Positions 3,832-21,382 of a DNA stretch of 64,000 nucleotides are shown here, one piece after another (positions within the stretch are counted from its first letter, which is position 1; the number at the start of each line of letters is the position of its first letter). The stretch comes from Subtercola boreus (GTDB lineage: Bacteria; Actinomycetota; Actinomycetes; Actinomycetales; Microbacteriaceae), in NCBI RefSeq assembly GCF_003399635.1, contig NZ_NBXB01000006.1, positions 62,001-126,000 of the forward strand, read 5' to 3'. The position numbers and the translations under genes were made by a program. The notes below the pieces were generated by a model. That model did no database searches. It was not told the origin of the DNA and worked only from the letters and a program-made list of their open reading frames with translations.

Positions 3832-5220
3832 TCACGACCGGGCGCCCGCGGGTTGCCCCACGCGGTACTGCGCACCGAGGTGCTCGGAAGGCAGCCGGTC
3901 GCCCCGGCCGTGCAGCTTGTTGCGGAGCGTTCCCTCGACGTATTCGGTCGGGTACGCGCCCCGCGCCTGCAGCTCCGGGATGATGAACTCGACCACGTCT
4001 TCGAACGTACCGGGAGTGATCGCGTAGGCCAGGTTGAAGCCGTCGACGTCGGTGTCGCGCACCCACTCCTCGAGGTGGTCTGCGACTTCGGATGCCGACC
4101 CCACGATGAACGGACCGAGCCCACCGATCGCCCCGAGCTTCGCGATGTCGCGCACCTTCCACTCGGCTCCGTCGTTGCCGGGTCCCTGGAAGTTCGCCAC
4201 CGCTGACTGGATCGCGTTGCTCTTCACATTGCCGATCGGCTCGTCGAGGTCGTACTGCGAGAGGTCGATGCCCATCCAGCCCGACATGAAGACCAGTGCG
4301 CCGTCTTCGCTGGCGTACTGCAGGTAGTCCTGGTGCTTCGCGTGCGCCTTCTCGCTCGTCTCGTCGGTGATGATCGTCAGCAGCGTATAGATCTTCGCCG
4401 AATGACGGTCGCGCCCGGCGGATTCGAGGGCGTCGCGGATGTTCTTCACCGTCTCACGCAGCAGCTCCTTCGTGGGTGAGGCCACGAAGATCGCTTCGGC
4501 GTTGCCGGCGGCGAACCGGATGCCGCGGGGCGAGGCTCCCGCCTGGTAGATCACGGGCGTGCGCTGGGTCGACGGCTCCGACAGGTGGATACCCGGAACC
4601 GTGTAGTTCTTGCCGTAGTGCCCGATCTCGTGCACCTTCGCCGGGTCGGTGAACACACCCGTCTCCCGGTTGCGGATGACGGCGTCGTCCTCCCACGACC
4701 CCTCCCACAGCTTGTACAGCACCTCGAGGTACTCATCGGCCACGTCGTAGCGGTCGTCGTGTTCGAGCTGGTCGTCGTGCCCCATGTTGCGCGCGGCGCT
4801 CGGCAGGTAGCCCGTGACGACGTTCCAGCCGACCCGGCCCTTCGTCAGGTGGTCGAGCGTCGACATACGGCGCGCAAACGGGTACGGATGCTCGTAGGCC
4901 GTGCCGGCGGTGATGCCGAATCCGAGGTGATCGGTGACTGCAGCCATCGCGCTGACCAGTAGGATCGGATCGTTCACCGGAACCTGCGCCCCGTGCCGGA
5001 TCGCCGCTTCGTTCGAGCCGCCGTACACGTCGTACGTGCCGAGTACGTCGGCGATGAAGATGCCGTCGAACCTGCCGCGCTCCAGTAGCTTCGCGAGCTC
5101 AGTCCAGTAGGAGAGCTCCTTGTAGCGCCACGACTGGTCCTGGGGGTGGCGCCACATGCCCGACGACTGGTGGGCGACACAGTTCATGTCGAAGGCATTG
5201 AAGCGGATCTGCTTGGTCAT
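3832..5220 (-). CDS. LLM flavin-dependent monooxygenase, NtaA/SnaA/DszA/DmoA group
   Basis: Predicted FMNH2-dependent monooxygenase (462 aa) of the bacterial luciferase superfamily, NtaA/DmoA group. The sequence begins in the group style (KQIRFNAFDMNCVAHQ) and contains GRVGWNVVTGY, YQAGASPRG and a C-terminal YPTEY region. Members cleave C-N or C-S bonds in compounds such as nitrilotriacetate, dibenzothiophene sulfone or dimethyl sulfide. Their reduced flavin comes from a separate reductase, and none is adjacent here. The gene leads metN by 4 nt, so it is probably co-transcribed with the methionine importer. A role on an organosulfur substrate is inferred from that linkage only. A purine-rich ribosome site (AGGA) precedes the ATG. 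Confidence 0.85.
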   Translation of the reverse strand: MTKQIRFNAFDMNCVAHQSSGMWRHPQDQSWRYKELSYWTELAKLLERGRFDGIFIADVLGTYDVYGGSNEAAIRHGAQVPVNDPILLVSAMAAVTDHLGFGITAGTAYEHPYPFARRMSTLDHLTKGRVGWNVVTGYLPSAARNMGHDDQLEHDDRYDVADEYLEVLYKLWEGSWEDDAVIRNRETGVFTDPAKVHEIGHYGKNYTVPGIHLSEPSTQRTPVIYQAGASPRGIRFAAGNAEAIFVASPTKELLRETVKNIRDALESAGRDRHSAKIYTLLTIITDETSEKAHAKHQDYLQYASEDGALVFMSGWMGIDLSQYDLDEPIGNVKSNAIQSAVANFQGPGNDGAEWKVRDIAKLGAIGGLGPFIVGSASEVADHLEEWVRDTDVDGFNLAYAITPGTFEDVVEFIIPELQARGAYPTEYVEGTLRNKLHGRGDRLPSEHLGAQYRVGQPAGARS

Positions 5221-6830: not shown

Positions 6831-6905
6831 TTCCCGTTCGGGAGGAGCTCAGCCGATGTGCCGCCCTATTCGGCTGACGTGGGCTGTGTTCCTCCCGAAC
6901 GGGAA
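6831..6905. terminator. Nested double hairpin, bidirectional terminator
   Basis: The outer arms 6831-6846 and 6890-6905 are a perfect 16-bp inverted repeat. Inside it is a second perfect 8-bp stem (6849-6856 with 6870-6877). It separates the converging DUF4440 and lipid kinase genes. The kinase stop codon (6866-6868) falls in the inner loop, so the right arm is also coding sequence. Confidence 0.7.
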
Positions 6906-7981
6906 GATGCAGCCCCCGCCTCGGCAGTGGGCAGGCTTGAGGCCGGCAGCGCCGCGCCGCCCACCGAACCGCGCACGCGCAGCGCGCCCACCTCGATCCA
7001 CGCCGTGGCCGACGTCACCCGGCCGAGGTACTCGCCGTCGATCTCGAAGTCCTGCGCCTCGGTCACGGCGAACGTGATCGCGCTCGCCCGCGCATGGCGC
7101 ACCGACGAGGTCGTGACCGGGGCCGATCCGTCGGCTGCGGCTCGCGCAGCGGGCTTCCGGGGGAGATACGTGGTGTTGGTGCGCCAGAACCAGTGGATCG
7201 CCCGGGCCCATTCGCCGGCCCCGAGGGGGCTCAGCACCACTACGTCGAGCTGGCCGTCGTCGATGAGGGCGCCGGGGATCATCCGGATGCCCGCCGGCAG
7301 CACGCCCGCATTGCCGAGCACGATCGTGTGTGCCGGAGTCTCGGGCAGCGGGGCGCCGTCGAGCGTGTAGCTGAGGTCGAAGCGGCGATTGCGCACGAAG
7401 GAGTCGAGGATGGCGCCGACGTACCCGGTCCAGCCTAGCGTGTCCTTGCCCTTCGGTGAGGTGTTGACCACCATCTGGGCGTCGACGCCCATGCCCGCCA
7501 TAACGGTGAACGCGCGGCTGATCGTCTCGCCTGAGTCGAGCACGGCGTCCACCCGGCCGACGTCCACCGTGCGGACCGTCTCGCTGAACGCTGCCCGCAG
7601 CGCCTTCCGGGCGTTCACGAACGGCAGGCCGATCACGCCGAGCGGCAGGCCGAGGGCCCGGGCGAAGAGGTTGGTCGTGCCGGTCGGCAGGATCCCGAGC
7701 GGAACCTGCTGGTGGGTCAGAGCCTGGGCGACAGCGCTGACCGTGCCGTCGCCGCCCGCGGCGATCACCACGTCGGGGGAGGACTCCAGCAGGCGGAGTG
7801 CGGCGACGTGGCCCGGATCCTCCACCGTGGTGGCGGCCCAGAGCGACAGAGCCCAGCCCTTCTCGGCCTCCATGGCGGCGACCATGGCGCGGAGTCGCTT
7901 CTCGTTGACCTTCGTCGGGTTGTAGACGATCGCAGCCGTCGGCCCAGGCCTTTCGGCAGGCACTCCCCCCGGAGCGGACAC
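6866..7981 (-). CDS. Diacylglycerol kinase-like lipid kinase (YegS/DgkB family)
   Basis: Predicted soluble lipid kinase (about 371 aa) that transfers phosphate from ATP to a diacyl- or alkylacyl-glycerol. The catalytic domain opens TAAIVYNPTKVNEKRL and carries the hallmark GGDGTVSAVAQAL, PTGTTNLFARALGLP and, near the C-terminus, FEIDGEYLG. The start is uncertain: GTG at 7981 is used, TTG at 7993 has a GGTGAG immediately before it, and another in-frame GTG lies 24 nt downstream. It begins 20 nt after the ferritin-like gene, so it is probably in the same operon. Its place at the end of a lipid locus suggests it returns a neutral ether lipid to the phosphatidic-acid pool. Confidence 0.85.
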   Translation of the reverse strand: MSAPGGVPAERPGPTAAIVYNPTKVNEKRLRAMVAAMEAEKGWALSLWAATTVEDPGHVAALRLLESSPDVVIAAGGDGTVSAVAQALTHQQVPLGILPTGTTNLFARALGLPLGVIGLPFVNARKALRAAFSETVRTVDVGRVDAVLDSGETISRAFTVMAGMGVDAQMVVNTSPKGKDTLGWTGYVGAILDSFVRNRRFDLSYTLDGAPLPETPAHTIVLGNAGVLPAGIRMIPGALIDDGQLDVVVLSPLGAGEWARAIHWFWRTNTTYLPRKPAARAAADGSAPVTTSSVRHARASAITFAVTEAQDFEIDGEYLGRVTSATAWIEVGALRVRGSVGGAALPASSLPTAEAGAASSRSGGTQPTSAE

Positions 7982-8001
7982 AGCAGCGCTCAACTCACCG
8001 G

Positions 8002-8799
8002 TCAGACCGCGGCGATGCCGTGGCCGTCGAGCGAGTCGGCCACGATCGTGAGCCCCTTGAGCCCGGGCATCTTGGCGATGTGGGCGTCGATCGCGTTGAT
8101 GGCCTTGCGACCGTCGATGCCACCGAAGATGTGGCCCATCACGTGCTTGACCTCGGTCTGGTCCATGATCGTCGACCCGACGGGGCCCCAGAACTTGCCG
8201 AGGGCGAACCGCGCGAACTTCTGGGCGAGCAGGCTCTTGCCGAGGCGCTCGCGGGCCTGGGTCGCATAGAAGGCCACGTGGCGTGCCTCCTGCATCGCGA
8301 TGCGCTTCAGCAGCTCGGCGAGAACCGGGTGGCCCTCGATCTCGGCCAGTCGCTTGTAGGCGGCAACGGCCGACCACTCGTTGGCGGCGCCCCAGATCAT
8401 GTGCACTGCGATGAAGTCCTTGCCCACCAGGTTCGAGAGCACCGACTGCTTCACGGGATCGATGCGATCCTTCCAGCCGAGCTTTAGGCGCTTCGACTTC
8501 AGTTCGTCGAACTCGAGCTCGATGTCGTGCATGCGGAGCACGTCGGCGAGGGCCTCGCCGTGCCAGAACTCCTCGCGGTTCCACATCGTCATGAACCCGG
8601 TCACGTCTTTGTCGCGGTGCGAGGGGGTGACGAGCATGTCGCGCATGTAGCAGACCGTGTGGTACTCGACATCGGCCATGTACCGGATGACGCGGAGCGT
8701 GTCGTCCGGCAGCGGATTCGTGCGGAACGTCTCGAAGTCAAGGTCTTCCCAGGCGACGTTCTTCGACGTCTTCGTGTAATTGTCGATGTCGAAGGCCAT
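8002..8799 (-). CDS. Ferritin-like diiron protein, possible lipid desaturase or oxygenase
   Basis: A 265-residue all-helical protein with a ferritin-like diiron site. Two EXXH ligand motifs are visible: EFWH within WNREEFWHGEAL (about residue 76) and EARH within MQEARHVAFY (about 170). These, with further Glu residues, are the pattern of carboxylate-bridged diiron enzymes such as acyl-ACP desaturases. No signal peptide or membrane segment is present. It lies between an acyltransferase and a lipid kinase, so oxidation or desaturation of a fatty or ether chain is a reasonable inference; the substrate is unknown. A second, degenerate copy lies at 13523-14338. Confidence 0.72.
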   Translation of the reverse strand: MAFDIDNYTKTSKNVAWEDLDFETFRTNPLPDDTLRVIRYMADVEYHTVCYMRDMLVTPSHRDKDVTGFMTMWNREEFWHGEALADVLRMHDIELEFDELKSKRLKLGWKDRIDPVKQSVLSNLVGKDFIAVHMIWGAANEWSAVAAYKRLAEIEGHPVLAELLKRIAMQEARHVAFYATQARERLGKSLLAQKFARFALGKFWGPVGSTIMDQTEVKHVMGHIFGGIDGRKAINAIDAHIAKMPGLKGLTIVADSLDGHGIAAV

Positions 8800-8856
8800 G
8801 GGCGCTTGAGGCTGTGCACGTTGCCGGGCGGTGCCTCATCCTCCTGTTTCTGAAAG

Positions 8857-8871
8857 TGCCAAGTTCTGGCA
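8857..8871. promoter_or_regulatory. Palindromic operator candidate
   Basis: TGCCA and TGGCA flank a 5-nt spacer in the leader between the candidate promoter at 8908-8937 and the ferritin-like gene. A regulator bound here would block transcription of that gene and the kinase. Confidence 0.3.
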
Positions 8872-8907
8872 GTCGGGTTCTTCCTATTGTGCGGGGTGAA
8901 TCTGAAA

Positions 8908-8937
8908 ATTGTAGCCACGCCAGCTGAACAGCGTCAT
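8908..8937 (-). promoter_or_regulatory. Candidate sigma-A promoter for the ferritin-like gene and lipid kinase
   Basis: On the minus strand TACAAT (8913-8908) is preceded by an ATGACG -35-like hexamer 18 nt upstream. This would give the ferritin-like gene a leader of about 100 nt. It is separate from the upstream acyltransferase gene, which ends at 8949. Confidence 0.4.
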
Positions 8938-8948
8938 TTCTGAAGCTG

Positions 8949-9641
8949 CTACTGCCACACTCGGCGTCTGGTCGCGCCGGTCGGTGTCGCTGTGGCCTTC
9001 CACATCCGCCGCCAGCCGGCCTCTGGCCGTCCCTCGGTTTCCCGGGGCACAGCTCCGTCGGCCGGTGATCTCCTAGCGCCGTACCAGCCTCGAGACTCCT
9101 CGGCCAGCCCGACCTCGATCGCCTGGGCGATGCTCTCGGTCACTGCGGATGATTCGTCGCCGGAGCCCGCTCGGATTGGTCGGGAGAACAGTACGGAGAC
9201 GCGGGGTCGCCCGGGTTCGACCGTGATTCGCCACGGCGGGAGGGCCCGGAAGGTGCCGAGGAGTGCCACCGGCACGAGCGGCACGCCGGTGCGGATGCCG
9301 AGAGCGGCCGCCCCGAGGTCGAGCGGAGCGAGCGATCCATCGTCGGTGCGGGTCTTCTCGGCGAAGAGCAGCACACTGGTACCGCTCTTCAGCAGGGCGG
9401 AGAGCCGGCTCGCCGACCGGAGGCTGAGGGCCTGGTCCACGAGGCCCCGGATGCCGCTCCGCGGTTCGACGGCAACCGAGACCAGTCGCGGCACGACGCT
9501 TCGCAGGGCATTCCGCACCAGCGCCTCGTCGAGCTGGGACGGGTGGTTCGCCACGAAGATGAACGGACCGCCCTGCTCCGTCACGTGTTCGAGACCGTAC
9601 ACGGACGGCGTGACGGCGAGCCGGATCGCGAGCCCGGGCAT
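8949..9641 (-). CDS. PlsC-like glycerolipid acyltransferase
   Basis: A 230-residue acyltransferase of the PlsC (LPLAT) group, which moves an acyl chain to a glycerol-phosphate backbone. The catalytic NHxxxxD block is present as NHPSQLD at about residue 33. The second block, normally FPEGTR, is altered to FAEKTRTDDG, so the phosphate-binding site differs from classical PlsC. The ATG at 9641 overlaps the stop of the LarA-like gene by one base (TGATG), which implies coupling; longer in-frame extensions run through that gene and are rejected. The last 40 residues are basic and Thr/Arg-rich. A candidate for the sn-1 or sn-2 acylation step. Confidence 0.82.
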   Translation of the reverse strand: MPGLAIRLAVTPSVYGLEHVTEQGGPFIFVANHPSQLDEALVRNALRSVVPRLVSVAVEPRSGIRGLVDQALSLRSASRLSALLKSGTSVLLFAEKTRTDDGSLAPLDLGAAALGIRTGVPLVPVALLGTFRALPPWRITVEPGRPRVSVLFSRPIRAGSGDESSAVTESIAQAIEVGLAEESRGWYGARRSPADGAVPRETEGRPEAGWRRMWKATATPTGATRRRVWQ

Positions 9642-11203
9642 CAGCTGACCTCGGAGATGCTCACCGGTGCACCGTGCACGTAGGTGATCGCGGGGGCGAG
9701 CCCGACCGAGTCCGAAGCCATCTCGAGGGCGTCGGCGAGGGTCGAGGCGGATTTGAAGCCGAGGCGCCTGGTCGAGCCGTGGTCGCCGCCCACAAAGATG
9801 ACGTCGCCGAGGTGCGCGATGGCCGGAGCCGCGGAGTACCAGGCGTGGAACGGGTGCAGCGCATGGTTCGACGAGCTGGTCTGGTAGACGTGCCGGTACC
9901 ACGGGTCGGCCGCGAACTTCTCCTCGAACTGCTCCGAGATGACGGCCGGGTCGGTGCTCTGGGTCAGCACCTCGGCGAAGAAGTCGATGTAGGCGGGGTC
10001 GTGCAGCGGGTGGAACCAGGGGGTCAGCGGGTGGTAGAAGATCGCCGTTCCGCCGGCCCGCACCACGGGCTCCGCGGTGGCCCCGCTGAAGATCTGGCCG
10101 AGTCCGAGGGCTGCGGCCGTGACGGGGTTCAGGCTCGACCCGATGGTGCCCGGGTTCGGGATGCCGAACAGCGCGACATCCGCCGGGCGGTCGAACTGGG
10201 CGACCTGCTGCTGGGCGAGGAACGCCTCGGTCAGCGGATGCACGGAGCTGGGCTTTCCCGCGACCACCGAGGTGACCCCGTAGCCGACTCCCGAGACCTG
10301 CGCGAGGCCGATCCGGGCGCGGGCGGGGAGGATGCGCGTGGCGGCCTGGAGCCCGGCGGAGAGGGCGCGGTCGGTGAGGCTCCACTCCCGCTCGCGCTTG
10401 CTGAGGAAGGCGGAGGCCGGGCCGGTGGGCTCCGGGGTGAGGGTGACGTCGACGGTGAAGACGCGCGCCTTGTCGCCGATGGTGTCGACGAGGTCGTCGA
10501 ACGCGTCGGTGTTCGTCGCATCAGAGCTGGCAGCGCTGGCCGCCGTCCCCGCTGCGAACGATCCCCGGGCCCGCGCCGTCTTCGCACCGATCAGCTTGGT
10601 CGCGACGGCCGCAGCGCCCTCGTTGCCGACCGCCGTGGCGAGGCGCACCGAGATGACCAGGTCGCTCGACGCGACCCGCGCGTTGACCTCGATCGGGGTT
10701 CCGCCCGGCAGTTCGCCGACCACCTCGAGGTTCTCGTCTTCGGCGTCGTGGCTCCGCACGTGGTCGGGCGCGAACGAGGCGTACACGCGCTCGCCCAGCA
10801 CGCGCTGCAGGTCGTGCGCGGTGAGGCGGCGCCTGAGCCCTGTCGCCGCGATGAGCTCGACGTCGTCGACGCCGGCTGCCGCCGCCCGTTCCAGAACGAG
10901 TTCGATGACGCGCTGCCGCACATCCGGAGCCGTGCGGCTCGTCACCGGCTGCGAGAGGTCTTCGAACACGATCGTGACGCGGGAACCACGCTTCAGAAGC
11001 GCGCTGAGCGGTTCGCTGTCGACAGGGGTGTCGAGTGCACGGCCGATCGCCTCATCGAGCGAGCGGATGCCCTGCAGCGCCTCGGGTGGGTACAGCACGC
11101 TCGCGTCGATCGGGAGTCGCTCGAGCAGCACCTTCTCGCCCTGGAACACGACGAGCGGAGGAGTCTGCGCATCGACGCTCAGTACGAAGCCTGGTCTACT
11201 CAT
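9641..11203 (-). CDS. LarA-fold (DUF2088) protein lacking the nickel-pincer residues
   Basis: A 520-residue protein that starts with the lactate racemase N-terminal pattern (LERLPIDASVLYPPE, then TIVFEDLSQPV). In known LarA a nickel-pincer nucleotide is held by a Lys and several His. The equivalent of LarA's ATGFHRP motif is ATGLRRR here, and the region that holds His174 and Lys184 has neither. It should therefore not be called a racemase. The C-terminal half keeps the LarA fold pattern (FGIPNPGTIGSSLNPVTAA, VIFVGGDHGSTRRLGF). It overlaps the reductase gene upstream by 8 nt and the acyltransferase downstream by 1 nt, so it is a tight member of the lipid operon. Function unknown. Confidence 0.75.
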   Translation of the reverse strand: MSRPGFVLSVDAQTPPLVVFQGEKVLLERLPIDASVLYPPEALQGIRSLDEAIGRALDTPVDSEPLSALLKRGSRVTIVFEDLSQPVTSRTAPDVRQRVIELVLERAAAAGVDDVELIAATGLRRRLTAHDLQRVLGERVYASFAPDHVRSHDAEDENLEVVGELPGGTPIEVNARVASSDLVISVRLATAVGNEGAAAVATKLIGAKTARARGSFAAGTAASAASSDATNTDAFDDLVDTIGDKARVFTVDVTLTPEPTGPASAFLSKREREWSLTDRALSAGLQAATRILPARARIGLAQVSGVGYGVTSVVAGKPSSVHPLTEAFLAQQQVAQFDRPADVALFGIPNPGTIGSSLNPVTAAALGLGQIFSGATAEPVVRAGGTAIFYHPLTPWFHPLHDPAYIDFFAEVLTQSTDPAVISEQFEEKFAADPWYRHVYQTSSSNHALHPFHAWYSAAPAIAHLGDVIFVGGDHGSTRRLGFKSASTLADALEMASDSVGLAPAITYVHGAPVSISEVS

Positions 11204-13526
11204 GGGTGATTTCTTTCGGGCTCGGGCCGAGGGCCGGGGTGGAGGATGCGCTCTGCACGATGTCGCCGCGCAGCAGCTCGCCGACGGTGTCGAATCGGCT
11301 GTGGTTGTGGTCGCTCCACTGGTGGATGCGCCAGTGTTTCTGGGTCGCGTGCTGGAACAGTGCGGCGTCGGGGTTGACAGCCTGCGGGTTGCCGACGAGT
11401 TCGAGCCAGGCGCGGTCGGCGATGCTGTCGCCGTAGGCGTACGACTTCTTCAGGTCGATCCCCTCACGCTCCCCGTAGAGGCGGAGCCACGCGGCCCGGG
11501 CTTCGTCGACGAGCGGGGGCTTCGAGAGGTGGCCCGTCCAGATGCCGTCCTTCGAGTGCATGTGGCTCGACACGACCTCGTCGAACAGGGTGACGAACGG
11601 CTCGACGAGCACATCGATGGCCCCGGTGACGAGGATCGTGCGGTGCCCGGCCTCGCGATGCTTGCGGATCTGGCGCACGGCCTCCGGGCGGATCCGCTGC
11701 AGCAGCACATCGCCGACGGTGTCGTGGATCAGCTGGCGGAGCGCCTGCTCGTCGACACCCTCGTATCGCCGGTAGAACGTGCGGATGAACTCGCCCCGGT
11801 CGCGGCGGTCGGCGGCAAGGTACTTCGGGAGCGAACCGAACAGGTTCGCGAGCTCCTGCGGCCACTTCGCGCGATCGAGGCTGGCGAGCCGCACCCAGAG
11901 GTACTGCTCGACGATGTTCGAGGCGAGAACGGTGCCCTCGAGGTCGAAGAACGCGGCTGCCTCGGGGTTCTGGGGCAGGGGCTTGTCGACCTGCGCCTTG
12001 GCGCGGGGCCGCGAGCTGAAGGTGCGCATCAGTGTCGTGACGGCCGGGAAGTGCACCTCCTGCAGGTAGTTGTCCCAGTCGATCTCGGTGGCGTCGAAGC
12101 CGAACTTCTGCCGGGCATCCGGCGGCAGCGTGTCGTTCAGCGCCGCCGTGCGGGAGTCGTCGTAGATGATCTCGGCCTGCGTGTAGTTCTGGTAGAGGTC
12201 GCTGTAGGCGCGGAGCAGCTCGAGGTCGGTCTGCCGGGCGGAGGCCTGCCGCATGAAACTGCGGGTGGTCTGGGTGGAGGGCAGGCGGAGCAGCGTGCGC
12301 TGGAGCAGCTTGTTCGCGCGTTCGCCGGTGCGGAGGCTCCGGGCGATCGCCCGGGCGCCGGGAAAGTCCCAGTAGGGGGTGCGGATGTGCCCGCGCTGCT
12401 CGTCGGGAATCGGGTTCGCGCGGAAGTACTTCAGCACGTTCTCGTAGATCTCGCGGAAGGTCAGCGGGTTCCGCCCGCCGGAGGAGAGGTGGAAGTACTT
12501 CGGGTCGGCGGGGGCAGGCGGGTTCGCCGCGACGGCGAGCGTGGCATTCACGACGATGTCGACAGGGATGATGTCGAGGATGCTGTCGGGCAGGCCGGGG
12601 AACTCGGGGACGAGCCCGCGGCCGTAGGCGATGATGAGCGGATCCGCCACCTTGAAGCCGTCGATCCAGCCTGGGAACGGGTGCTTCAGGGCGCTCTCGA
12701 TGATCGCGGGGCGCACGACGGAGAGCCGGTGACCGTTGTCGGCCCACAGCTCCTCGGCGACCCGCTCGCTCATCGACTTCGTGAAGGCGTACACATCCGC
12801 CCAGCCGACGCTCTGCGCGCGGGTGCGGCCGTAGTCGACGAGGCGCTTCGTGACCCATTCGGTGCGACCGATCTCGGCCGCGATGGCGACAGCGTGCGGG
12901 CCGACCTTGCCGTTGTCGAGTTTCGCGTCGGCGATCATCTTGCGAAGCACTTCGGGCCGGCGGGATGAGGCCTCGACCGTGGTGCGTGCGGCCAGCGCGG
13001 CCGCCATCTCGTCACGCCACTGGATGGTGTGCTTCAGGCTGGCCTCAACCACCGTGCCCTTGGTGATGCCGCCGACGTACGCGGTCGACACGTGCACGAC
13101 GTGCGGGTCGCTGCCCGTCGCGAGCAGTGCTTCGTAGAGGCCGACGGCGCCGCCGACGTTGGTCTTGAAAGCCTCGTCAATGGGCGGGTCGAACGACACG
13201 GTCGAGGCGCTGTGGATGAGCACGTCCAGGTCGGCAGGCAGGCCCGCGACCGATCCCATGCTCGATTCGATGACCGAGATGCGCTCGGTCATCGCCCGCT
13301 CGACCTCATCCGCCCCGACGCGCTCGCGCCACTTCGAGAAGACGGGCTTTCGCAGCAGGCTCTTCAGGCGGGCCTGTCCGGTGAGCGACCCCTTCGGCCG
13401 GATCAGCAGGGTCATCCGGGTGGTCGGATAGTCGGCGAGCAGCTTCTCGAGAATCGCCTGGCCCACGAAACCGGTGGCTCCGGTGAGCATGATGTGCTGG
13501 CCCTCGAGGGGGGAGAAGGCGCTCAC
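11196..13526 (-). CDS. Fatty acyl reductase-HAD phosphatase fusion
   Basis: A 776-residue two-domain protein. Residues 1 to about 380 form an extended-SDR fatty acyl-CoA reductase (NAD_binding_4): TGATGFVG at 15-22, HVSTAYVGG near 145-153 and the YAFTK catalytic Tyr-Lys at 246-250, followed by the FAR C-terminal region. Residues about 520-740 are a HAD-IB phosphatase: FFDLEGT at 526-532, VTGAIDVLVEPF, and YGDSIADRAWLE. The first domain would make fatty aldehyde or alcohol from acyl-CoA. The second resembles SerB/CicA-type enzymes that remove a phosphate or act on lysophosphatidate. In HAD motif I, Glu stands where Asp is usual (DLEGT). It overlaps both neighbours by a few bases. Confidence 0.87.
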   Translation of the reverse strand: MSAFSPLEGQHIMLTGATGFVGQAILEKLLADYPTTRMTLLIRPKGSLTGQARLKSLLRKPVFSKWRERVGADEVERAMTERISVIESSMGSVAGLPADLDVLIHSASTVSFDPPIDEAFKTNVGGAVGLYEALLATGSDPHVVHVSTAYVGGITKGTVVEASLKHTIQWRDEMAAALAARTTVEASSRRPEVLRKMIADAKLDNGKVGPHAVAIAAEIGRTEWVTKRLVDYGRTRAQSVGWADVYAFTKSMSERVAEELWADNGHRLSVVRPAIIESALKHPFPGWIDGFKVADPLIIAYGRGLVPEFPGLPDSILDIIPVDIVVNATLAVAANPPAPADPKYFHLSSGGRNPLTFREIYENVLKYFRANPIPDEQRGHIRTPYWDFPGARAIARSLRTGERANKLLQRTLLRLPSTQTTRSFMRQASARQTDLELLRAYSDLYQNYTQAEIIYDDSRTAALNDTLPPDARQKFGFDATEIDWDNYLQEVHFPAVTTLMRTFSSRPRAKAQVDKPLPQNPEAAAFFDLEGTVLASNIVEQYLWVRLASLDRAKWPQELANLFGSLPKYLAADRRDRGEFIRTFYRRYEGVDEQALRQLIHDTVGDVLLQRIRPEAVRQIRKHREAGHRTILVTGAIDVLVEPFVTLFDEVVSSHMHSKDGIWTGHLSKPPLVDEARAAWLRLYGEREGIDLKKSYAYGDSIADRAWLELVGNPQAVNPDAALFQHATQKHWRIHQWSDHNHSRFDTVGELLRGDIVQSASSTPALGPSPKEITHE

Positions 13527-14338
13527 GCGGCTGCCTTCACGCCGTAGCGCCTGGTCGCCCTCATCATGACCTTCAGCCCGCCCAGGCCCGGAAGTGCGTC
13601 GACGCCCTGGTCGACGTCGAAGACTCCAGCGCGCCCCTCGGCGTCACTGAACAGGTACTTCATCATCAATCGGGTCTCCTGGATCGGTTGCTCATGCGTG
13701 CCCGTCGGCACCCACGACCGTCGAAGCGACGACCTGGTGAGCTTCCGAGCCGATACCGATTCTTCCAGTCTTCGCACGGTTTCGCCTTCGAAGAACTGCA
13801 GATGCCGGTCGCGGAGCTTCTGGAAGGCGGCCAGCACCTCGGCCAGGGCGGGGTTCGGGTCGTTCTTCGACAGCTGGGAGTAGGCCACTCTGCTCACCAG
13901 CTCGTCGATGTACCCGCGGGTGACGTGGCCGGCGATGATGTCCTCGCCGATCAGGTTCGAGCGGATCGCCGTGACGATCGGTGAAACCCTGTCGATGGCC
14001 TCGCGGGCGAAGCGCACCACACCCGAGCGGGCGCGGCTCTTCACGGGGATGAAGTCGGGGTGCACCGCGATGATGCGGTCGAACGCATCCGCGATCCAGA
14101 ACTTCTCGAACGCCCAGGTCGCGAGGAACGCCGTGAGCCGGGCGTCCTTGTGGCTCGGAGTCACCAGCACGTCGCGCATGTGGTGCATCGTGAAGTCCTC
14201 GAGGTCGCGAAGGTACGCCAGCGTCTGGAGCGTCTGGTGGGTGAGCGGATGCTCGGCGAACGCCGCCAGTGGCAGGGTCGCCTCGTGGCTGCCCGCCGCG
14301 GTGCGGGTGTATTCGCGGATGTCGAAGTCAGAGGTCAT
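13523..14338 (-). CDS. Degenerate ferritin-like paralogue without diiron ligands
   Basis: A 271-residue homologue of the diiron protein at 8002-8799. Shared blocks include HHMRDVLVTPSHKD, matching CYMRDMLVTPSHRD, and the ending DALPGLGGLKVM, matching KMPGLKGLTIV. The metal ligands are lost: WNREEFWHGE has become WAFEKFWIAD, and QEARH has become LRDRH, so both EXXH motifs are broken. It is likely a structural or regulatory partner rather than an enzyme. The start at 14338 (MTSDFDIREYT) matches the paralogue and has GGAG upstream. It overlaps the reductase by 4 nt and is the first gene of the minus arm. Confidence 0.72.
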   Translation of the reverse strand: MTSDFDIREYTRTAAGSHEATLPLAAFAEHPLTHQTLQTLAYLRDLEDFTMHHMRDVLVTPSHKDARLTAFLATWAFEKFWIADAFDRIIAVHPDFIPVKSRARSGVVRFAREAIDRVSPIVTAIRSNLIGEDIIAGHVTRGYIDELVSRVAYSQLSKNDPNPALAEVLAAFQKLRDRHLQFFEGETVRRLEESVSARKLTRSSLRRSWVPTGTHEQPIQETRLMMKYLFSDAEGRAGVFDVDQGVDALPGLGGLKVMMRATRRYGVKAAA

Positions 14339-14398
14339 GGTGGTCTCCGGTCGGGCGAGGATGTGAGTTTTCGTACAGCAGTGCATCAGTCGTTCGTC

Positions 14399-14419
14399 GC
14401 CATCACGTATCGTGATTGC
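14399..14419. promoter_or_regulatory. Palindromic operator over the leaderless -10 between the two lipid arms
   Basis: Two 9-nt arms (14399-14407 and 14411-14419) are inverted copies with one mismatch around a 3-nt centre; the inner arms ATCACG and CGTGAT are perfect. The TATCGT at 14408-14413 ends 7 nt before the ATG at 14421 and would be the -10 element of the SDR gene. The site lies in the 82-nt gap between divergent lipid genes, a normal place for a TetR- or GntR-type repressor. No such regulator is encoded nearby. Confidence 0.55.
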
Positions 14420-14420
14420 C

Positions 14421-15191
14421 ATGGTTACGGCAATGGTCACGGGTGGCACCTCGGGTATCGGTGCGGCGTTCGCGCGGGCACTGGCAGACCGGGGTGACAA
14501 CCTGGTCATCGTCGCACGCGACGAAACACGGCTCGCCGAGACCGCCGAGTCGCTGCGCACAGAATACGGCATCGAGGTCGAGACGATCTCGGCCGACCTC
14601 GGTGAGCGCACAGACGTGCTGCGGGTGGCCGCTCGCCTCGAAGACACCTCCTCGCCCATCGACATGCTCGTCAATAACGCTGGTTTCGGCGTGCACGCCT
14701 CTCTTCTGGCCGTCGACACCACTCCCCACGAGCGGGCGATCGACGTGATGATCCGCGGGGTGCTGATGCTGGGCGCCGCGGCAGGTCGCACCATGCGCAC
14801 GCGGGGATCGGGAACGATCGTGAACGTGTCGAGCGTGGCCGGATTCGTCACTATGGGGAGCTATTCGGCCGTCAAGGCCTGGGTGGCGTCCTACAGCCAG
14901 GGCCTCGCGGTGGAGCTCAAGGGCTCAGGCGTTCAGGTCACGACGCTCTGCCCCGGGTGGGTGAAGACCGAGTTCCACGCCCGGGCGGGCATCCGGGAGT
15001 CGTCGATCCCCAACTTCCTCTGGGTCGATGTCGACGAGCTGGTGGCGGCGTGCCTGGCGGACGTGGAGAAGGGCAAGGTCATCTCCGTGCCCTCCCGCCG
15101 GTTCCAGTTCCTGATGTTCGTGATCAAGCACGCTCCGCGGAGCGGAATCCGCTGGGCGTCGGGAAAGATCTCGTCCAGCCGCAACGACTGA
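14421..15191 (+). CDS. Short-chain dehydrogenase/reductase, candidate acyl/alkyl-DHAP reductase
   Basis: A 256-residue classical SDR. The cofactor motif TGGTSGIG lies near the N-terminus; NNAGFG, the catalytic Ser in VNVSSVAGF, and the Tyr-Lys pair in YSAVKAW follow. A hydrophobic, basic C-terminal end (RFQFLMFVIKHAP) may touch the membrane. The ATG at 14421 is chosen because a TATCGT hexamer sits 7 nt before it; GTG at 14412 would fall inside that element. It is the first gene of an SDR-acyltransferase-AGPS run. In ether-lipid pathways a ketone reductase must act after alkyl-DHAP synthase, and this SDR is the obvious local candidate. The substrate is inferred from context only. Confidence 0.82.
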   Translation: MVTAMVTGGTSGIGAAFARALADRGDNLVIVARDETRLAETAESLRTEYGIEVETISADLGERTDVLRVAARLEDTSSPIDMLVNNAGFGVHASLLAVDTTPHERAIDVMIRGVLMLGAAAGRTMRTRGSGTIVNVSSVAGFVTMGSYSAVKAWVASYSQGLAVELKGSGVQVTTLCPGWVKTEFHARAGIRESSIPNFLWVDVDELVAACLADVEKGKVISVPSRRFQFLMFVIKHAPRSGIRWASGKISSSRND

Positions 15192-15231
15192 CTGGGTGCC
15201 GCACGCGTTTCGGTTCCACAGTCCGAGTGGG

Positions 15232-15237
15232 TACTCT
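15232..15237 (+). promoter_or_regulatory. -10 element, leaderless promoter of the acyltransferase
   Basis: TACTCT ends 6 nt before an in-frame GTG at 15244 and argues for that start over the GTG at 15196. Confidence 0.45.
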
Positions 15238-15243
15238 GGGTTG

Positions 15244-16008
15244 GTGCAGTTCGGCAACAGATACACCTCTAAGGCCCAAGCGGGCGCCCGCTTCGTCGCC
15301 CAGCGCCTGCTGCTGAAGCCGGTCATCTGGTCGATGGTGCATGTGACCATCACCGATCGTGCTCTCCTCAAAGAGGTCAGGGGCCCGTACATCGTGGTGG
15401 CGAACCACTCCAGCCACCTGGATGCGCCCCTCATCCTCGGATCGATGCCCTCGCGGCTCTCCCGCTACCTCGCGGCTGCTGCTGCGGCTGACTACTTCTT
15501 CGACGTGTGGTGGCGGAAGGGCCTCACCGCGCTGTTCTTCAACGCCTTCCCGGTCGACCGCAGTGCGAACGCCCGGTCGACAGGCTTCACGGGCAAGCTC
15601 CTGAAGGCAGGCGTGCCGCTGCTCGTCTTCCCCGAGGGCACCCGTTCCAAAGACGGCACGATCGCCCCGTTCAAGGGCGGCGCCGCTGCGCTCTGCCTCA
15701 AGGCGGGCATCCCGTGCATCCCGATGGCCCTCGTCGGCGCCACGCAGGCCATGCCGCGCGGCCGAAACTGGCCCGTGCCCGGCCGACCGCCCGTTCGGGT
15801 TCGCTTCGGCCAGCCGCTCATCGCCGCAGAAGGCGAGAACGTCACAGACTTCAACGACCGCATCGAGAAGGTCGTGCGCGAGATGCACGCGGCCGAGTTC
15901 GCGCTGTTCCTCGCCGAGACGGGCGCCAACGTCCACAATCACCCCACTGTCGAATCTGCCGATGCAACCGGCGACTCCGACGAGCACCCCCGTGAAGGAG
16001 CCGCATGA
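15244..16008 (+). CDS. PlsC-like 1-acylglycerol-3-phosphate acyltransferase
   Basis: A 254-residue LPLAT acyltransferase with all usual blocks: NHSSHLD (catalytic His-Asp), FPEGTRSKDGT, and an IPMALVGATQAMP segment near the end of the catalytic domain. It would acylate a lysophospholipid at the membrane. The start is a choice: GTG at 15196 is only 4 nt after the SDR stop, but GTG at 15244 has a TACTCT -10 hexamer exactly 6 nt upstream and leaves an N-terminus of normal length (VQFGNRYTSK). The stop overlaps the AGPS start by 4 nt. Unlike the acyltransferase at 8949-9641 this one keeps the full motif set, so it may do the sn-2 step. Confidence 0.85.
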   Translation: MQFGNRYTSKAQAGARFVAQRLLLKPVIWSMVHVTITDRALLKEVRGPYIVVANHSSHLDAPLILGSMPSRLSRYLAAAAAADYFFDVWWRKGLTALFFNAFPVDRSANARSTGFTGKLLKAGVPLLVFPEGTRSKDGTIAPFKGGAAALCLKAGIPCIPMALVGATQAMPRGRNWPVPGRPPVRVRFGQPLIAAEGENVTDFNDRIEKVVREMHAAEFALFLAETGANVHNHPTVESADATGDSDEHPREGAA

Positions 16009-17672
16009 CCGACGTCAAGCACATGAAATGGTGGGGCTGGGGCGTCGAAGGGGTGGGATTCCACCACGAGGACAAGCCGGGATTCGCTCCGTTCGTCGTC
16101 AACGCCGTCGGCATCGATGTGTGGCGGGAGCCGGTTCCCCCGGTCGCATTCTCCGAACTCGACGTTCCCGCATCCCAGGCGCCCGCAGAGCTGCTCGAGG
16201 CCCTCACGACGATCGTCGGGCCCGAGTTCTCGACCGTCGACGATGAAGAGCGCGTCGTGCACACGTACGGCAAGAGCATCCGGGATCTGATCCGCGTGCG
16301 TGCCAGCTCGTTCGCCCGGGTGCCCGACGTCGTGGTCTATCCGGCCGACGAGAGCGCCGTGCAGCGCATCGTCGACCTCGCTGTGTCGCTCGACGCCGTC
16401 GTCATCCCGTTCGGCGGTGGCAGCAACATCGTCGGTTCGCTCGAGCCGATGCCCACCGAGACGCGCACCGTCATCTCGCTCGACATGGGCCGGCTCTCGC
16501 GCGTGCTCGACATCGACGAGTACTCCGGGCTCGCGGTCATCCAGGCCGGCGTGCTCGGTCCCGACATGGAGGAGCAGCTGCAGGCCCGCGGCTGGACCAT
16601 GGGTCACCAGCCCGACAGCTTCACCTACTCCACCCTCGGTGGCTGGATCGCGACCCGCTCGTCGGGCATGCAGAGTGACAAGTACGGCGACATCGCCGAC
16701 ATCACCAAAGGCCTCCGGGTCGTGCAGCCGGGCAAGCTGCTGGTCGTGCGCCCCATCCCCTCGTCGGCCACCGGCCCGAGCGTGCGGGAGGCCATCCTCG
16801 GCAGCGAGGGTCGTCTCGGCATCATCACCGAGGCCACCGTGCAGGTGCACCGCCTGCCCGAGAGGCGCGAGGTCATCGGCTACCTCTTCCGTGACTGGGA
16901 TTCCGGCCTCGCCGCCATGCACGACATCAACACCAGCGACGCCGCACCCTCCATCACCCGGGTCTCGGATGCCCGTGAGACCGCGTTCTCGTTCTCGACG
17001 TCGAAGGCATCCCACGGCATCAGCGGGCAGGTGCAGAAGGCGCTGTTCGCCTTCCTGCAGAAGCGCGGCTGGAACCTCGACGAGATCTGCCTCTCCTTCA
17101 TCGGTTACGAGGGCTCGGCCGCCAACGTCGCGCACCAGAAGGGCCTGGTCGGCAGCATCGTGAAGAAGCACGGGGCGATCACCCTCGGCAAGGGCCCGGG
17201 CACGCTCTACGACCAGAAGAAATTCGACACGCCCTACCTCCGCGACTTCCTTCTCGACCGCGGCGCGGCGGCGGATGTCTCGGAGACCTCGGCCCCGTGG
17301 TCCCGCCTGAAGCCCCTCTACGACAACGTCTTCGCGGCGGCCAACAAGGCCTATGATTCGCTCGGTGAGAGCGGGTGGATCATGTGCCACCTCTCGCACT
17401 CGATGCACTCCGGTGCCTGCCTCTACTTCACCTTCGCCTTCACCCACGATGGCGTCGACCCGCTCGCGCAGTACGACGTCGTGAAGTCCGCCATCCAGCA
17501 GGCCTTCATCGATTCGGGCGGAACGCTCTCGCACCACCACAGCGTCGGTGTGGAGCACTCCCAGTGGACCGAGCAGGACATCTCGGTGGCCGGCGCCGAC
17601 CTCATCCAGGGCATGTTCACGGCCGTCGACCCGGGCAAGAACCTGAACCCGGGGAAGGTCCTGCGCCGCTAA
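16005..17672 (+). CDS. Alkyldihydroxyacetonephosphate synthase (AGPS)-like FAD enzyme
   Basis: A 555-residue FAD-binding oxidase of the VAO/PCMH fold. It starts with the AGPS hallmark MKWWGWG. It continues with the FAD-binding run PFGGGSNIVGS, the AGPS-specific block PDSFTYSTLGGWIATRSSGM and KYGDIADI, a C-terminal HHHSVG (His510-512), and NPGKVL at the end. Known AGPS swaps the acyl chain of acyl-DHAP for a fatty alcohol and so forms the glycerol ether bond, using FAD without net redox. The Tyr-His elements are in place, so an active synthase is plausible. It is coupled to the acyltransferase by a 4-nt overlap. Some actinobacterial homologues are annotated only as FAD-binding oxidases, but the neighbours here favour the ether-lipid reading. 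Confidence 0.9.
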   Translation: MTDVKHMKWWGWGVEGVGFHHEDKPGFAPFVVNAVGIDVWREPVPPVAFSELDVPASQAPAELLEALTTIVGPEFSTVDDEERVVHTYGKSIRDLIRVRASSFARVPDVVVYPADESAVQRIVDLAVSLDAVVIPFGGGSNIVGSLEPMPTETRTVISLDMGRLSRVLDIDEYSGLAVIQAGVLGPDMEEQLQARGWTMGHQPDSFTYSTLGGWIATRSSGMQSDKYGDIADITKGLRVVQPGKLLVVRPIPSSATGPSVREAILGSEGRLGIITEATVQVHRLPERREVIGYLFRDWDSGLAAMHDINTSDAAPSITRVSDARETAFSFSTSKASHGISGQVQKALFAFLQKRGWNLDEICLSFIGYEGSAANVAHQKGLVGSIVKKHGAITLGKGPGTLYDQKKFDTPYLRDFLLDRGAAADVSETSAPWSRLKPLYDNVFAAANKAYDSLGESGWIMCHLSHSMHSGACLYFTFAFTHDGVDPLAQYDVVKSAIQQAFIDSGGTLSHHHSVGVEHSQWTEQDISVAGADLIQGMFTAVDPGKNLNPGKVLRR

Positions 17673-17752
17673 GAGGCCCGGCGGGGCCCCGTATCGGCGC
17701 CGCCTATTCAAAGCCTGAAGGGGCCCCTTCGCGTTTACGACGGACGCGGGAT

Positions 17753-18514
17753 CTACTCGACGCCGTCGAGGACGGGGTTGTGCGGGTCGCGACCGGCATC
17801 CTGCTTGTCGGCATCGGATCTGGTCGGAGCCTGCTGTTCGTGCAGGTTCTGGCGCTTCAGGATCTCTGCCGTGATAAGGATGGGGCGGTGGTCGGAGAGA
17901 CCCTTCGGCAGGGTCTCGACGAGCTGCACGTCCATGCCCTTGGAGGTGGCGAAGTCGAAGTGGTAGGCGATCGACTTCGAGTAGTAGTAGGTCGGCCCGT
18001 CGCTCAGGGAGAGCGAGAACCCTGCCTTCTCGACCTGCTTGATCAGCCGGCTGCGGAGCAGCGGATAGTTGAAGTCACCGGTCATGACCGTGGGCACGTC
18101 GCCGGTCAGCTCGGTCAGGTGAACGTGCGCCTGGGCGATCTGCTGCCGGCGGAGGAGGTTCGTCGCCGAGAGCGGTGACGCATGGAACGAGGCCAGCTGC
18201 ACATCCTGTCCGGACTGCAGGTCGACGAGCCGCGTGGTGAGCAGGCGTTCGATGCCGGGCAGCAGCACGCGGTCGTGCATCGCCTTCCGCAGCGTGAAGG
18301 CATGCGAGTCGAGCGCGGTGAACCGGTCGGGGCGGTAGTAGATCGCGAGCCCGAGTTCGCTCTTGTAGGTGGCAGCGCTCAACTGCAGCTCACCGATCTG
18401 CTCGGGCATGCGCGTGCCCTCGCCCTCCTGAAGGCACAGGGCATCAACAGGGTGGCGCAGGACCAACTCTTCCAACTCGGCGACGGCTGCATGCCGCCGC
18501 AGGTTGTAGCTCAT
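17753..18514 (-). CDS. Endonuclease/exonuclease/phosphatase (EEP) family protein
   Basis: A 253-residue EEP-fold Mg2+-dependent phosphodiesterase. Typical marks are SYNLRRH (Asn), CLQEGEG (metal-binding Glu), SFHASPLSA, TGDFNYP (Asp and Asn) and SDHRPI (catalytic Asp-His pair). The fold covers nucleases, sphingomyelinases and phosphoinositide phosphatases, so a phospholipid substrate is possible next to the lipid locus but not shown. The start at ATG 18514 removes a poor upstream extension; family members usually begin a few residues before SYNLR, so a GTG at 18559, close behind a TAGACT hexamer, is an alternative. It converges on AGPS. Confidence 0.8.
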   Translation of the reverse strand: MSYNLRRHAAVAELEELVLRHPVDALCLQEGEGTRMPEQIGELQLSAATYKSELGLAIYYRPDRFTALDSHAFTLRKAMHDRVLLPGIERLLTTRLVDLQSGQDVQLASFHASPLSATNLLRRQQIAQAHVHLTELTGDVPTVMTGDFNYPLLRSRLIKQVEKAGFSLSLSDGPTYYYSKSIAYHFDFATSKGMDVQLVETLPKGLSDHRPILITAEILKRQNLHEQQAPTRSDADKQDAGRDPHNPVLDGVE

Positions 18515-20697: not shown

Positions 20698-21285
20698 GTG
20701 CAGCAGGCAGGGAACGGTGGCGACGGGGAGCTGGCCTACTGCTACGAGGTCGAGATCGTGCACCTGCTGGCCTCGCCGCTGCACCGGTATGAGGGGCGGC
20801 CGGGCGACGGGCCGCGGCCCGTACCGACGGGAGCGCCCGATGAGGTGCGGCAGAGCATCCAGCTGCGGGCGCACCTGGGCATTGTCGGCGACCGCCACTT
20901 CGGGCACGCGGCGCACCGCAGCGCCTCTGTGACGGTCATGGCGGTCGAATCGGTCGAACACGTCGAACGGATACTCGGGCTTGCGGAACCGCTCGATCCG
21001 TATGCCACCCGCCGCAACATCCTCCTACGCGGAGTCGACGTCGATCTGCTCAAGAAGGCCCGGTTCCTTCTGGACTCCGGCCAGGGTGCAGTCGAGTTCC
21101 AGGGGCATCGGCCGGCGAATCCGTGCGCGTGGATGGACGTGATGCTGGCCCCGGGAGCACACCAGGCCCTGCGAGGGCGGGGCGGTGTGCGCTGCGAGCC
21201 GCTCAGCAGCGGAACCCTGGCGGTGGGCCGTGCGGTGCTCCGATCATCCATCGCCCTCGAGACCAACGGGGGTGTGCTGTTCTGA
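20698..21285 (+). CDS. MOSC-domain-like protein (YiiM-type)
   Basis: About 195 residues with a MOSC-type core: an N-terminal VEIVHLLASPLHRYEGRPGDGP segment, GIVGDRHFGHAAHRS, TRRNILLRGVDVDLL and NPCAWMDVMLAPGAHQALRGRGGVRC, in the usual order. The conserved Cys of MOSC proteins, which can carry sulfur or bind a molybdenum cofactor, is probably the one in NPCAW. The GTG at 20698 has TACGCT 6 nt before it, and the longer open frame upstream is low-complexity Pro/Arg noise. The gene stands alone. The substrate is unknown; related YiiM proteins detoxify N-hydroxylated compounds. Confidence 0.78.
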   Translation: MQQAGNGGDGELAYCYEVEIVHLLASPLHRYEGRPGDGPRPVPTGAPDEVRQSIQLRAHLGIVGDRHFGHAAHRSASVTVMAVESVEHVERILGLAEPLDPYATRRNILLRGVDVDLLKKARFLLDSGQGAVEFQGHRPANPCAWMDVMLAPGAHQALRGRGGVRCEPLSSGTLAVGRAVLRSSIALETNGGVLF

Positions 21286-21382
21286 CGCCATTGGCAACGG
21301 GTTGACAGGCTCAGACGGGTGGCGGACCGTGGAAGCGAGCGCAAGCAAGAGCACCACCAAGACACTGCACACAGGAGGAACC

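Follow-up and report, generated by a model that had tools for sequence, protein, structure and literature searches.

Dimethyl acetals are a signature of plasmalogens, and they recur in the aerobic actinobacterial genus Subtercola (Microbacteriaceae), so which genes could provide for such lipids? The question is raised by a 64,000-nucleotide stretch of the Subtercola boreus genome (NCBI RefSeq assembly GCF_003399635.1, contig NZ_NBXB01000006.1, positions 62,001 to 126,000 of the forward strand; hereafter the window, with coordinates counted from its first letter). Here, genes for an alkyl-dihydroxyacetone phosphate (alkyl-DHAP) synthase, AGPS, and for a fatty acyl-CoA reductase (FAR) lie together with genes for a short-chain dehydrogenase (SDR), a PlsC-type acyltransferase (PlsC1) and two related proteins that we call diiron A and diiron B. 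We think it rather likely that the locus is an aerobic plasmalogen-type ether-lipid module in which diiron A, together with B, forms the vinyl ether. That this six-gene core has an ether-lipid role is a conclusion in which we place high confidence.

Genes in the window were called from open reading frames together with codon composition, and identities were assigned via Pfam and NCBIfam profiles. All the gene types listed in an earlier note on this DNA, which had proposed an ether-lipid locus of ten genes, were recovered by these profile matches. The minus arm consists, in reading order, of diiron B, the FAR fused to a HAD domain (FAR-HAD), a LarA-fold protein, a second PlsC-type acyltransferase (PlsC2), diiron A and a lipid kinase, and the plus arm of SDR, PlsC1 and AGPS. 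The two arms diverge across a gap of about 82 bp (14339..14420) that is presumably a shared promoter region. The overlapping genes that the note had described in these divergent arms are real, with overlaps of 1–8 bp (diiron B/FAR-HAD 4 bp, FAR-HAD/LarA-fold 8 bp, LarA-fold/PlsC2 1 bp, PlsC1/AGPS 4 bp).

The gene most telling of function is AGPS (555 amino acids; 16005..17672, plus strand), which has the FAD_binding_4 and FAD-oxidase_C domains. Searched against PDB chains, it matches an alkyl-DHAP synthase that we take to be the Dictyostelium enzyme (E 2.3e-114, 386 bits) and the peroxisomal enzyme (E 7.4e-85, 289 bits), while the best oxidase other than AGPS reaches only E 3.5e-18 (69 bits); the protein thus does not group with non-lipid FAD oxidases, an outcome that the earlier note had allowed for. 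The C-terminal HHH, an active-site Tyr and an Arg-Asp pair are functional residues of AGPS enzymes. The HHH, Tyr-Phe and Arg-Asp residues are kept in the alignment with these PDB chains and in 34/34 aligned rows. The same genome encodes five weaker AGPS paralogues, and HHH is missing in all three that aligned; it is present in nine AGPS-like proteins (31–49% identity) from other genomes. By sequence comparison, then, the identity of AGPS is firm. A locus unrelated to ether lipids, with FAR and acyltransferases making wax esters or similar products and the FAD enzyme acting as a non-lipid oxidase, would fit the fact that FAR and PlsC domains are common to other lipid pathways, but is opposed by the AGPS similarity, by the HHH that the aligned paralogues lack and by the dimethyl acetals of the genus. 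We regard it as highly improbable.

FAR-HAD (776 amino acids; 11196..13526, minus strand) combines an NAD_binding_4 domain (E 6e-45) and a HAD-IB domain (E 2e-33) with a Sterile domain scoring slightly below its cut-off (34.4 against 35.4 bits), and its closest solved structure is the fatty acyl-CoA reductase 7eoz (E 2.6e-45). With NAD_binding_4, Sterile and a YxxxK motif it has the defining features of a fatty acyl-CoA reductase. The Y and K of this motif, as well as the D, E, G and T of a DLEGT motif in the HAD domain, are invariant in 34/34 rows. HAD domains usually carry DxDG, and the replacement by DLEGT means that the phosphatase chemistry may be altered. The SDR (14421..15191, plus strand; adh_short E 5e-42), a candidate alkyl-DHAP reductase, has Y and K of YxxxK in all 34 rows. 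PlsC1 (15241..16008, plus strand, start uncertain; PF01553 E 1.5e-21), a candidate DHAP acyltransferase, has H and D of HxxxxD in 33/33 rows, the short PlsC of locus L068 being omitted from this set.

These activities would form a consecutive route. FAR-HAD would supply fatty alcohol by reducing branched fatty acyl thioesters, PlsC1 would acylate dihydroxyacetone phosphate, AGPS would exchange the acyl chain of the product for the fatty alcohol, giving alkyl-DHAP, and SDR would reduce this to alkyl-glycerol-3-phosphate, which could then enter ordinary phospholipid or glycolipid synthesis. Finally, diiron A with the ligand-less B would use O2 to desaturate the alkyl chain between C1' and C2', yielding the vinyl ether that is seen as dimethyl acetals. 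The substrates of the enzymes, the partnership of A and B and the desaturation step are points that we infer.

From 398 Microbacteriaceae genomes we picked forty loci, none longer than 20 kb, spanning genera and including odd cases, and searched them with the window's proteins, reducing the matches to non-overlapping ones. Seven of the forty contain the diiron pair only. The other 33 carry AGPS, and 30 of these, from 28 genera, show exactly the same core order, namely diiron A, FAR-HAD and diiron B pointing one way followed by SDR, PlsC and AGPS pointing the other. The conserved gene order that the earlier note had proposed to look for in the family is therefore found, but for six genes and not for ten: three of the 30 loci have the LarA-fold and PlsC2 genes inserted within the core, and the ten-gene unit was rejected because the LarA-fold, PlsC2 and kinase genes do not adjoin the core in most genera. 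The exceptions among the 33 are L059 and L074, where the diiron pair is set apart, and L070, which is without the pair.

A second set comprised 80 of 334 loci with diiron A relatives, many of them from the same genomes as the family set, so that the two counts are not independent. Matches were again non-overlapping, and those below 37% identity and 100 bits were dropped except for the diiron pair queries. All six core genes occur together in 59 of the 80 loci, 55 of them in core order and four rearranged (L150, L173, L182, L185). The remaining 21 include seven loci from Jiangella and nine in which the diiron pair stands alone, is truncated by a contig end or is otherwise set apart. Carriers of the module include Subtercola, Labedella, Herbiconiux, Salinibacterium, Agreia, Glaciihabitans, Amnibacterium, Ruania and Phytoactinopolyspora. 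Outside the family, a plasmid record of Streptomyces sp. NBC_01450 also holds the six genes in a cluster, as do Phytoactinopolyspora (Jiangellaceae) and Ruania (Ruaniaceae). As the exact order recurs in 28 genera of the family and the six genes are clustered in other families too, the clustering exceeds what chance would give. In one family locus, L071 (genome G194, genus g79), the module is complete but its diiron A belongs to a different part of the tree, which suggests transfer of the module; the other fetched members of g79 are pair-only.

Does the presence of the module coincide with the presence of the lipids? Dimethyl acetals in aerobic Subtercola have been on record since Mannisto et al. 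2000 (via PMC5945732, PMC7472656). Table 2 of PMC5945732 lists them in the type strains S. vilae DB165, S. frigoramans, S. boreus and S. lobariae, and with traces excluded they sum to about 22, 27, 29 and 21% of peak area, respectively; for the values of the last three species that paper cites Mannisto 2000 and Si 2017. The acetals of S. vilae DB165 are i-16:0, a-15:0 and a-17:0, and these are also listed for the other three species (PMC5945732). The genome of S. vilae DB165, the very strain measured, carries the module (L119, G090). So does that of S. lobariae (L122, CGMCC 1.12976), whose identity with the measured deposit is unverified, and so do two S. boreus genomes from strains other than the measured one. 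For Agreia, low dimethyl acetals are given in PMC5945732, and for Frondihabitans none; the module is present in each of the four Agreia loci that were returned (L167, L175, L179, L181). Together with the family membership of AGPS and the conserved order, the acetals of the four Subtercola species support the earlier proposal of an ether-lipid locus. As for head groups, the abstract of PMC5945732 names phosphatidylglycerol and diphosphatidylglycerol among the polar lipids of S. vilae, does not name phosphatidylethanolamine, and leaves some lipids unidentified.

Subtercola is described as aerobic in PMC7472656, which also documents anteiso-15:0 dimethyl acetal for Kineococcus rubinsiae and states that the MIDI system had called this peak C14:0 2OH, and for a Frigoribacterium strain both 15:0 anteiso aldehyde/dimethyl acetal and C14:0 2OH are listed (PMC12823222). 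If C14:0 2-OH may be a misread anteiso-15:0 dimethyl acetal, plasmalogen producers could be under-reported. Among the papers listed in literature searches that left most subscription journals outside, we found none that connects plasmalogens with a ferritin-like protein or with genes of Microbacteriaceae.

We then asked whether a known vinyl-ether enzyme might account for these lipids. CarF/PEDS1 (PF10520) was matched in 0/36 genomes of the family, of which 33 have AGPS and three the diiron pair only, in none of 11 Subtercola genomes and in none of six other carriers. The search itself works, because it matches 12 of 296 Actinomycetota genomes, two of which matched again in the carrier run; the 14 built-in controls were silent. 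Likewise DUF2229, which we take to be the PlsA domain and used as the PlsA marker, was matched in 0/36 family genomes and 0/11 Subtercola genomes, while 4/14 controls match. The latter result bears on the idea that the Subtercola acetals are products of the PlsA/PlsR pathway, which is anaerobic and reductive, and that the locus is unrelated to them; this route has been reported for several Actinobacteria orders (PMC9702350), but with its marker missing throughout the genus and family genomes searched we give the idea very little credence. That neither CarF nor the PlsA marker was found strengthens a vinyl-ether role of diiron A.

The CarF/PEDS1-family proteins themselves (PF10520, E down to 7e-58) merit a separate remark. 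Eleven of the 12 genomes that carry them belong to one family (f56), and their loci are L237-L248, among them those of G703, G799, G896, G858, G749 and G935. Of the window's proteins, only SDR was matched (30–45% identity) in six CarF-bearing actinobacterial stretches of 12–20 kb. According to PMC9131029, bacterial CarF had previously been reported only from myxobacteria and Leptospira.

Diiron A (265 amino acids; 8002..8799, minus strand) is the sole O2-type metalloenzyme recognised in the core, and its ligands and predicted fold make it a candidate vinyl-ether-forming desaturase. In an alignment of the window and 39 loci, the ligands E45, E77xxH80, E141 and E171xxH174 are complete in 40/40 rows. 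The protein thereby has the pattern of ferritin-like diiron carboxylate proteins (E, ExxH, E, ExxH in a helical bundle); B lacks the full set of ligands. Profile matches are weak, with Rubrerythrin at E 4.6e-4 (21.0 bits, cut-off 22.8) and AcsF at E 8e-4, far below its cut-off. The structural model (predicted local distance difference test, pLDDT, 90) retrieves stearoyl-ACP desaturases first in Foldseek and R2-like oxidases close behind, with a best E of 1.1e-3 and template-modelling scores to the query of about 0.5–0.6. In sequence, nothing significant was found for diiron A among PDB entries (the best, E 0.011, is a designed bundle, and a DesA2 chain reaches E 0.37), and desaturase families are absent from its Pfam and NCBIfam matches, so that it does not qualify as an acyl-ACP desaturase at the sequence level.

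Diiron B (271 amino acids; 13523..14338, minus strand), a homologue of A with 31% identity, has E-K-I-E-R-H at the six ligand positions in the window. Across the 40 B rows, the second ligand position is K or R in 39, the third I in 31 and the fifth K or R in 34, and B retains many invariant residues of its own. The protein had been described in the earlier note as a dead copy; this is right in that the metal ligands are lost, but a gene conserved with its own invariant residues is not decaying, and we rejected the notion of a decaying pseudogene for this intact, conserved gene. The model of B (pLDDT 86) is nearest to R2-like oxidases in Foldseek (best E 0.03). Yeast ribonucleotide reductase has an inactive small subunit, and in a comparable manner A and B may form a heteromer in which B would be structural.

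To what extent diiron A follows the ether-lipid genes was examined across the 398 family genomes. AGPS orthologues were called at E <1e-100, which selects proteins of 63–100% identity (the next tier begins at 2.6e-93, with 35–37%), and diiron A at the same E threshold. AGPS is present in 116 genomes, in four of them split or partial, and diiron A in 124; both occur in 114, AGPS alone in two, diiron A alone in ten and neither in 272 (Fisher p 7e-85, without correction for shared ancestry). FAR-HAD is found in 117 genomes, comprising all 116 with AGPS and G107. Completeness is 77% and 85% for the two AGPS genomes in which diiron A was not found at this threshold. Jiangella (Jiangellaceae) has its diiron A gene away from the others, yet all 8 genomes tested also encode AGPS and FAR.

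This pattern matters for the view that the module makes saturated alkyl ethers only, that an unlinked enzyme such as a non-CarF membrane desaturase forms the vinyl ether, and that the diiron pair is otherwise employed. The presence of diiron A within the core operon and in 114 of 116 AGPS genomes, its company with AGPS even where unlinked and its standing as the only O2-type metalloenzyme recognised there speak against such an arrangement, which we consider unlikely. Another option is that the pair acts on the free chain, by aldehyde deformylation to alkanes, 2-hydroxylation or in-chain desaturation. The cyanobacterial alkane route consists of a reductase and a deformylating oxygenase, and here, too, the diiron genes adjoin an acyl reductase; moreover, 6d9f, titled with aldehyde deformylating oxidase activity, is among the weak matches of diiron B. 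The top matches of diiron A are acyl-ACP desaturases, however, and the linkage to AGPS would be left unexplained. For in-chain desaturation, the Subtercola chains in Table 2 of PMC5945732 are nearly all saturated, with a-15:1 trace or undetected. For 2-hydroxylation, 14:0 2-OH does amount to 10.3% in S. lobariae, but this is the very name under which MIDI misreads a-15:0 dimethyl acetal (PMC7472656). All in all, action on the free chain strikes us as quite improbable.

Several observations nevertheless weigh against diiron A as the vinyl-ether enzyme. No Foldseek match of its model reaches E <= 0.001, R2-like oxidases rank near the desaturases in that list, and our genome-wide search covered two vinyl-ether markers only, a point in favour of an unlinked enzyme. 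We searched 31 genomes (30 diiron A carriers and G101) again at E <= 1e-30, finding AGPS or an AGPS-like protein in 18, FAR in 20 and neither in nine. Eight of the 30 carriers, from three Microbacteriaceae genera, have both diiron genes without AGPS or FAR-HAD, a persistence that an unlinked enzyme would accommodate, and the distant carrier G585 (35% identity) likewise is without AGPS and FAR. Diiron A and FAR occur without AGPS in G487, G556 and G550, as action on the free chain would allow, and in G107, where the contig ends within the locus. In G142 and G431 an AGPS-like protein (31–37%) occurs without FAR, G101 (85% complete) has AGPS and FAR with diiron A missing, and the Jiangella diiron A is without a second match for B. 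A pair kept without AGPS and FAR-HAD has some use outside the ether pathway and may have another substrate, and this weakens the vinyl-ether role. In the diiron A tree, the pair-only rows are nested among module-bearing Microbacteriaceae, and their clade also takes in two rows that have the module; the pair-only genomes have therefore probably lost the other core genes. Agromyces, Naasia lichenicola and Leifsonia flava are among the carriers of the pair alone. On account of these observations, we hold our confidence in the desaturase role of diiron A at about even or slightly above.

Set against known systems, the pathway is of a known kind, and its last step appears new. PexRAP of the mammalian peroxisomal pathway is an SDR, as is the core dehydrogenase here. 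By family, that pathway (FAR1, GNPAT, AGPS, PexRAP and PEDS1/TMEM189) has the same four early activities (PMC9131029), whereas the Subtercola module is a divergent bacterial operon pair with a soluble-looking ferritin-like pair and no PEDS1/CarF match. The aerobic Myxococcus xanthus, as described in PMC9131029, resembles Subtercola in having AGPS, a FAR with an acyltransferase, an NAD-dependent reductase and branched chains (MXAN_1676-1674, elb and CarF); it differs in that the multidomain ElbD matters most and CarF desaturates, while in Subtercola FAR carries a fused HAD domain, PlsC and SDR are separate proteins and CarF is not matched. Clostridial PlsA/PlsR has the vinyl-ether product in common with the proposed pathway but is reductive, independent of O2 and starts from diacyl lipids (PMC9702350), and the genomes searched here gave no match to its marker domain. 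Lastly, diiron A shares the predicted fold and the pattern of four Glu and two His with soluble acyl-ACP desaturases and R2-like ligand-binding oxidases; unlike these, it has no significant PDB sequence match, is shorter than the plant enzymes and is paired with a ligand-less homologue.

The other genes of the stretch are less closely tied to the core. The LarA-fold protein (9641..11203, minus strand; Lar_N E 5e-28) scores 492 bits with NCBIfam LarAH14/15/16, under the cut-off of 740. PlsC2 (8949..9641, minus strand; PF01553 E 2e-10) and the LarA-fold gene are inserted into the core in no family loci other than those of Subtercola and Labedella. The DAGK/YegS-type lipid kinase (6866..7981, minus strand, start uncertain; DAGK_cat E 2e-19, YegS_C E 1e-10) likewise adjoins diiron A in loci of these two genera but has no match in L077; kinase-like matches (35–41%) are placed elsewhere in some other loci, and the kinase query used in these comparisons carried one extra leading codon. 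LarA-like protein, PlsC2 and kinase are lineage extras. A LarA-like gene adjoins FAR-HAD in several actinobacterial families (L107, L216, L217, L233, L234, L235), some of the genomes being free of AGPS, and FAR adjoins such a gene in G487, G556, G550, G408 and G419. The convergent gene for an EEP-family phosphodiesterase (17753..18514, minus strand; PF03372 E 3e-8) was matched only in Subtercola loci; the query was mis-framed and its absence from other loci is therefore weak evidence, and we judged the gene to be outside the core. Genes for luciferase-like monooxygenases flank the region at 3832-5220 and 21185-22357, one of them adjoining an ABC transporter gene.

What would the module mean for these bacteria? 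Among aerobic bacteria, PMC9131029 treats the myxobacteria as the exception in having plasmalogens and CarF as the aerobic desaturase, and the human vinyl-ether enzyme was identified only in 2019–2020 (PMC9131029, PMC7149458). We see an even chance that aerobic actinobacteria have a third route to vinyl ethers, neither CarF/PEDS1 nor PlsA/PlsR, in which a soluble acyl-ACP-desaturase-like diiron protein acts with a ligand-less homologue and which is encoded alongside a complete eukaryote-style DHAP ether-lipid pathway. Diiron A is the best candidate for such a new vinyl-ether-forming enzyme. The module as a whole is a candidate genetic basis for the dimethyl acetals of aerobic Subtercola, and from it we would expect ether lipids in some 30 of the 85 sampled Microbacteriaceae genera as well as in Phytoactinopolyspora, Jiangella and Ruania.

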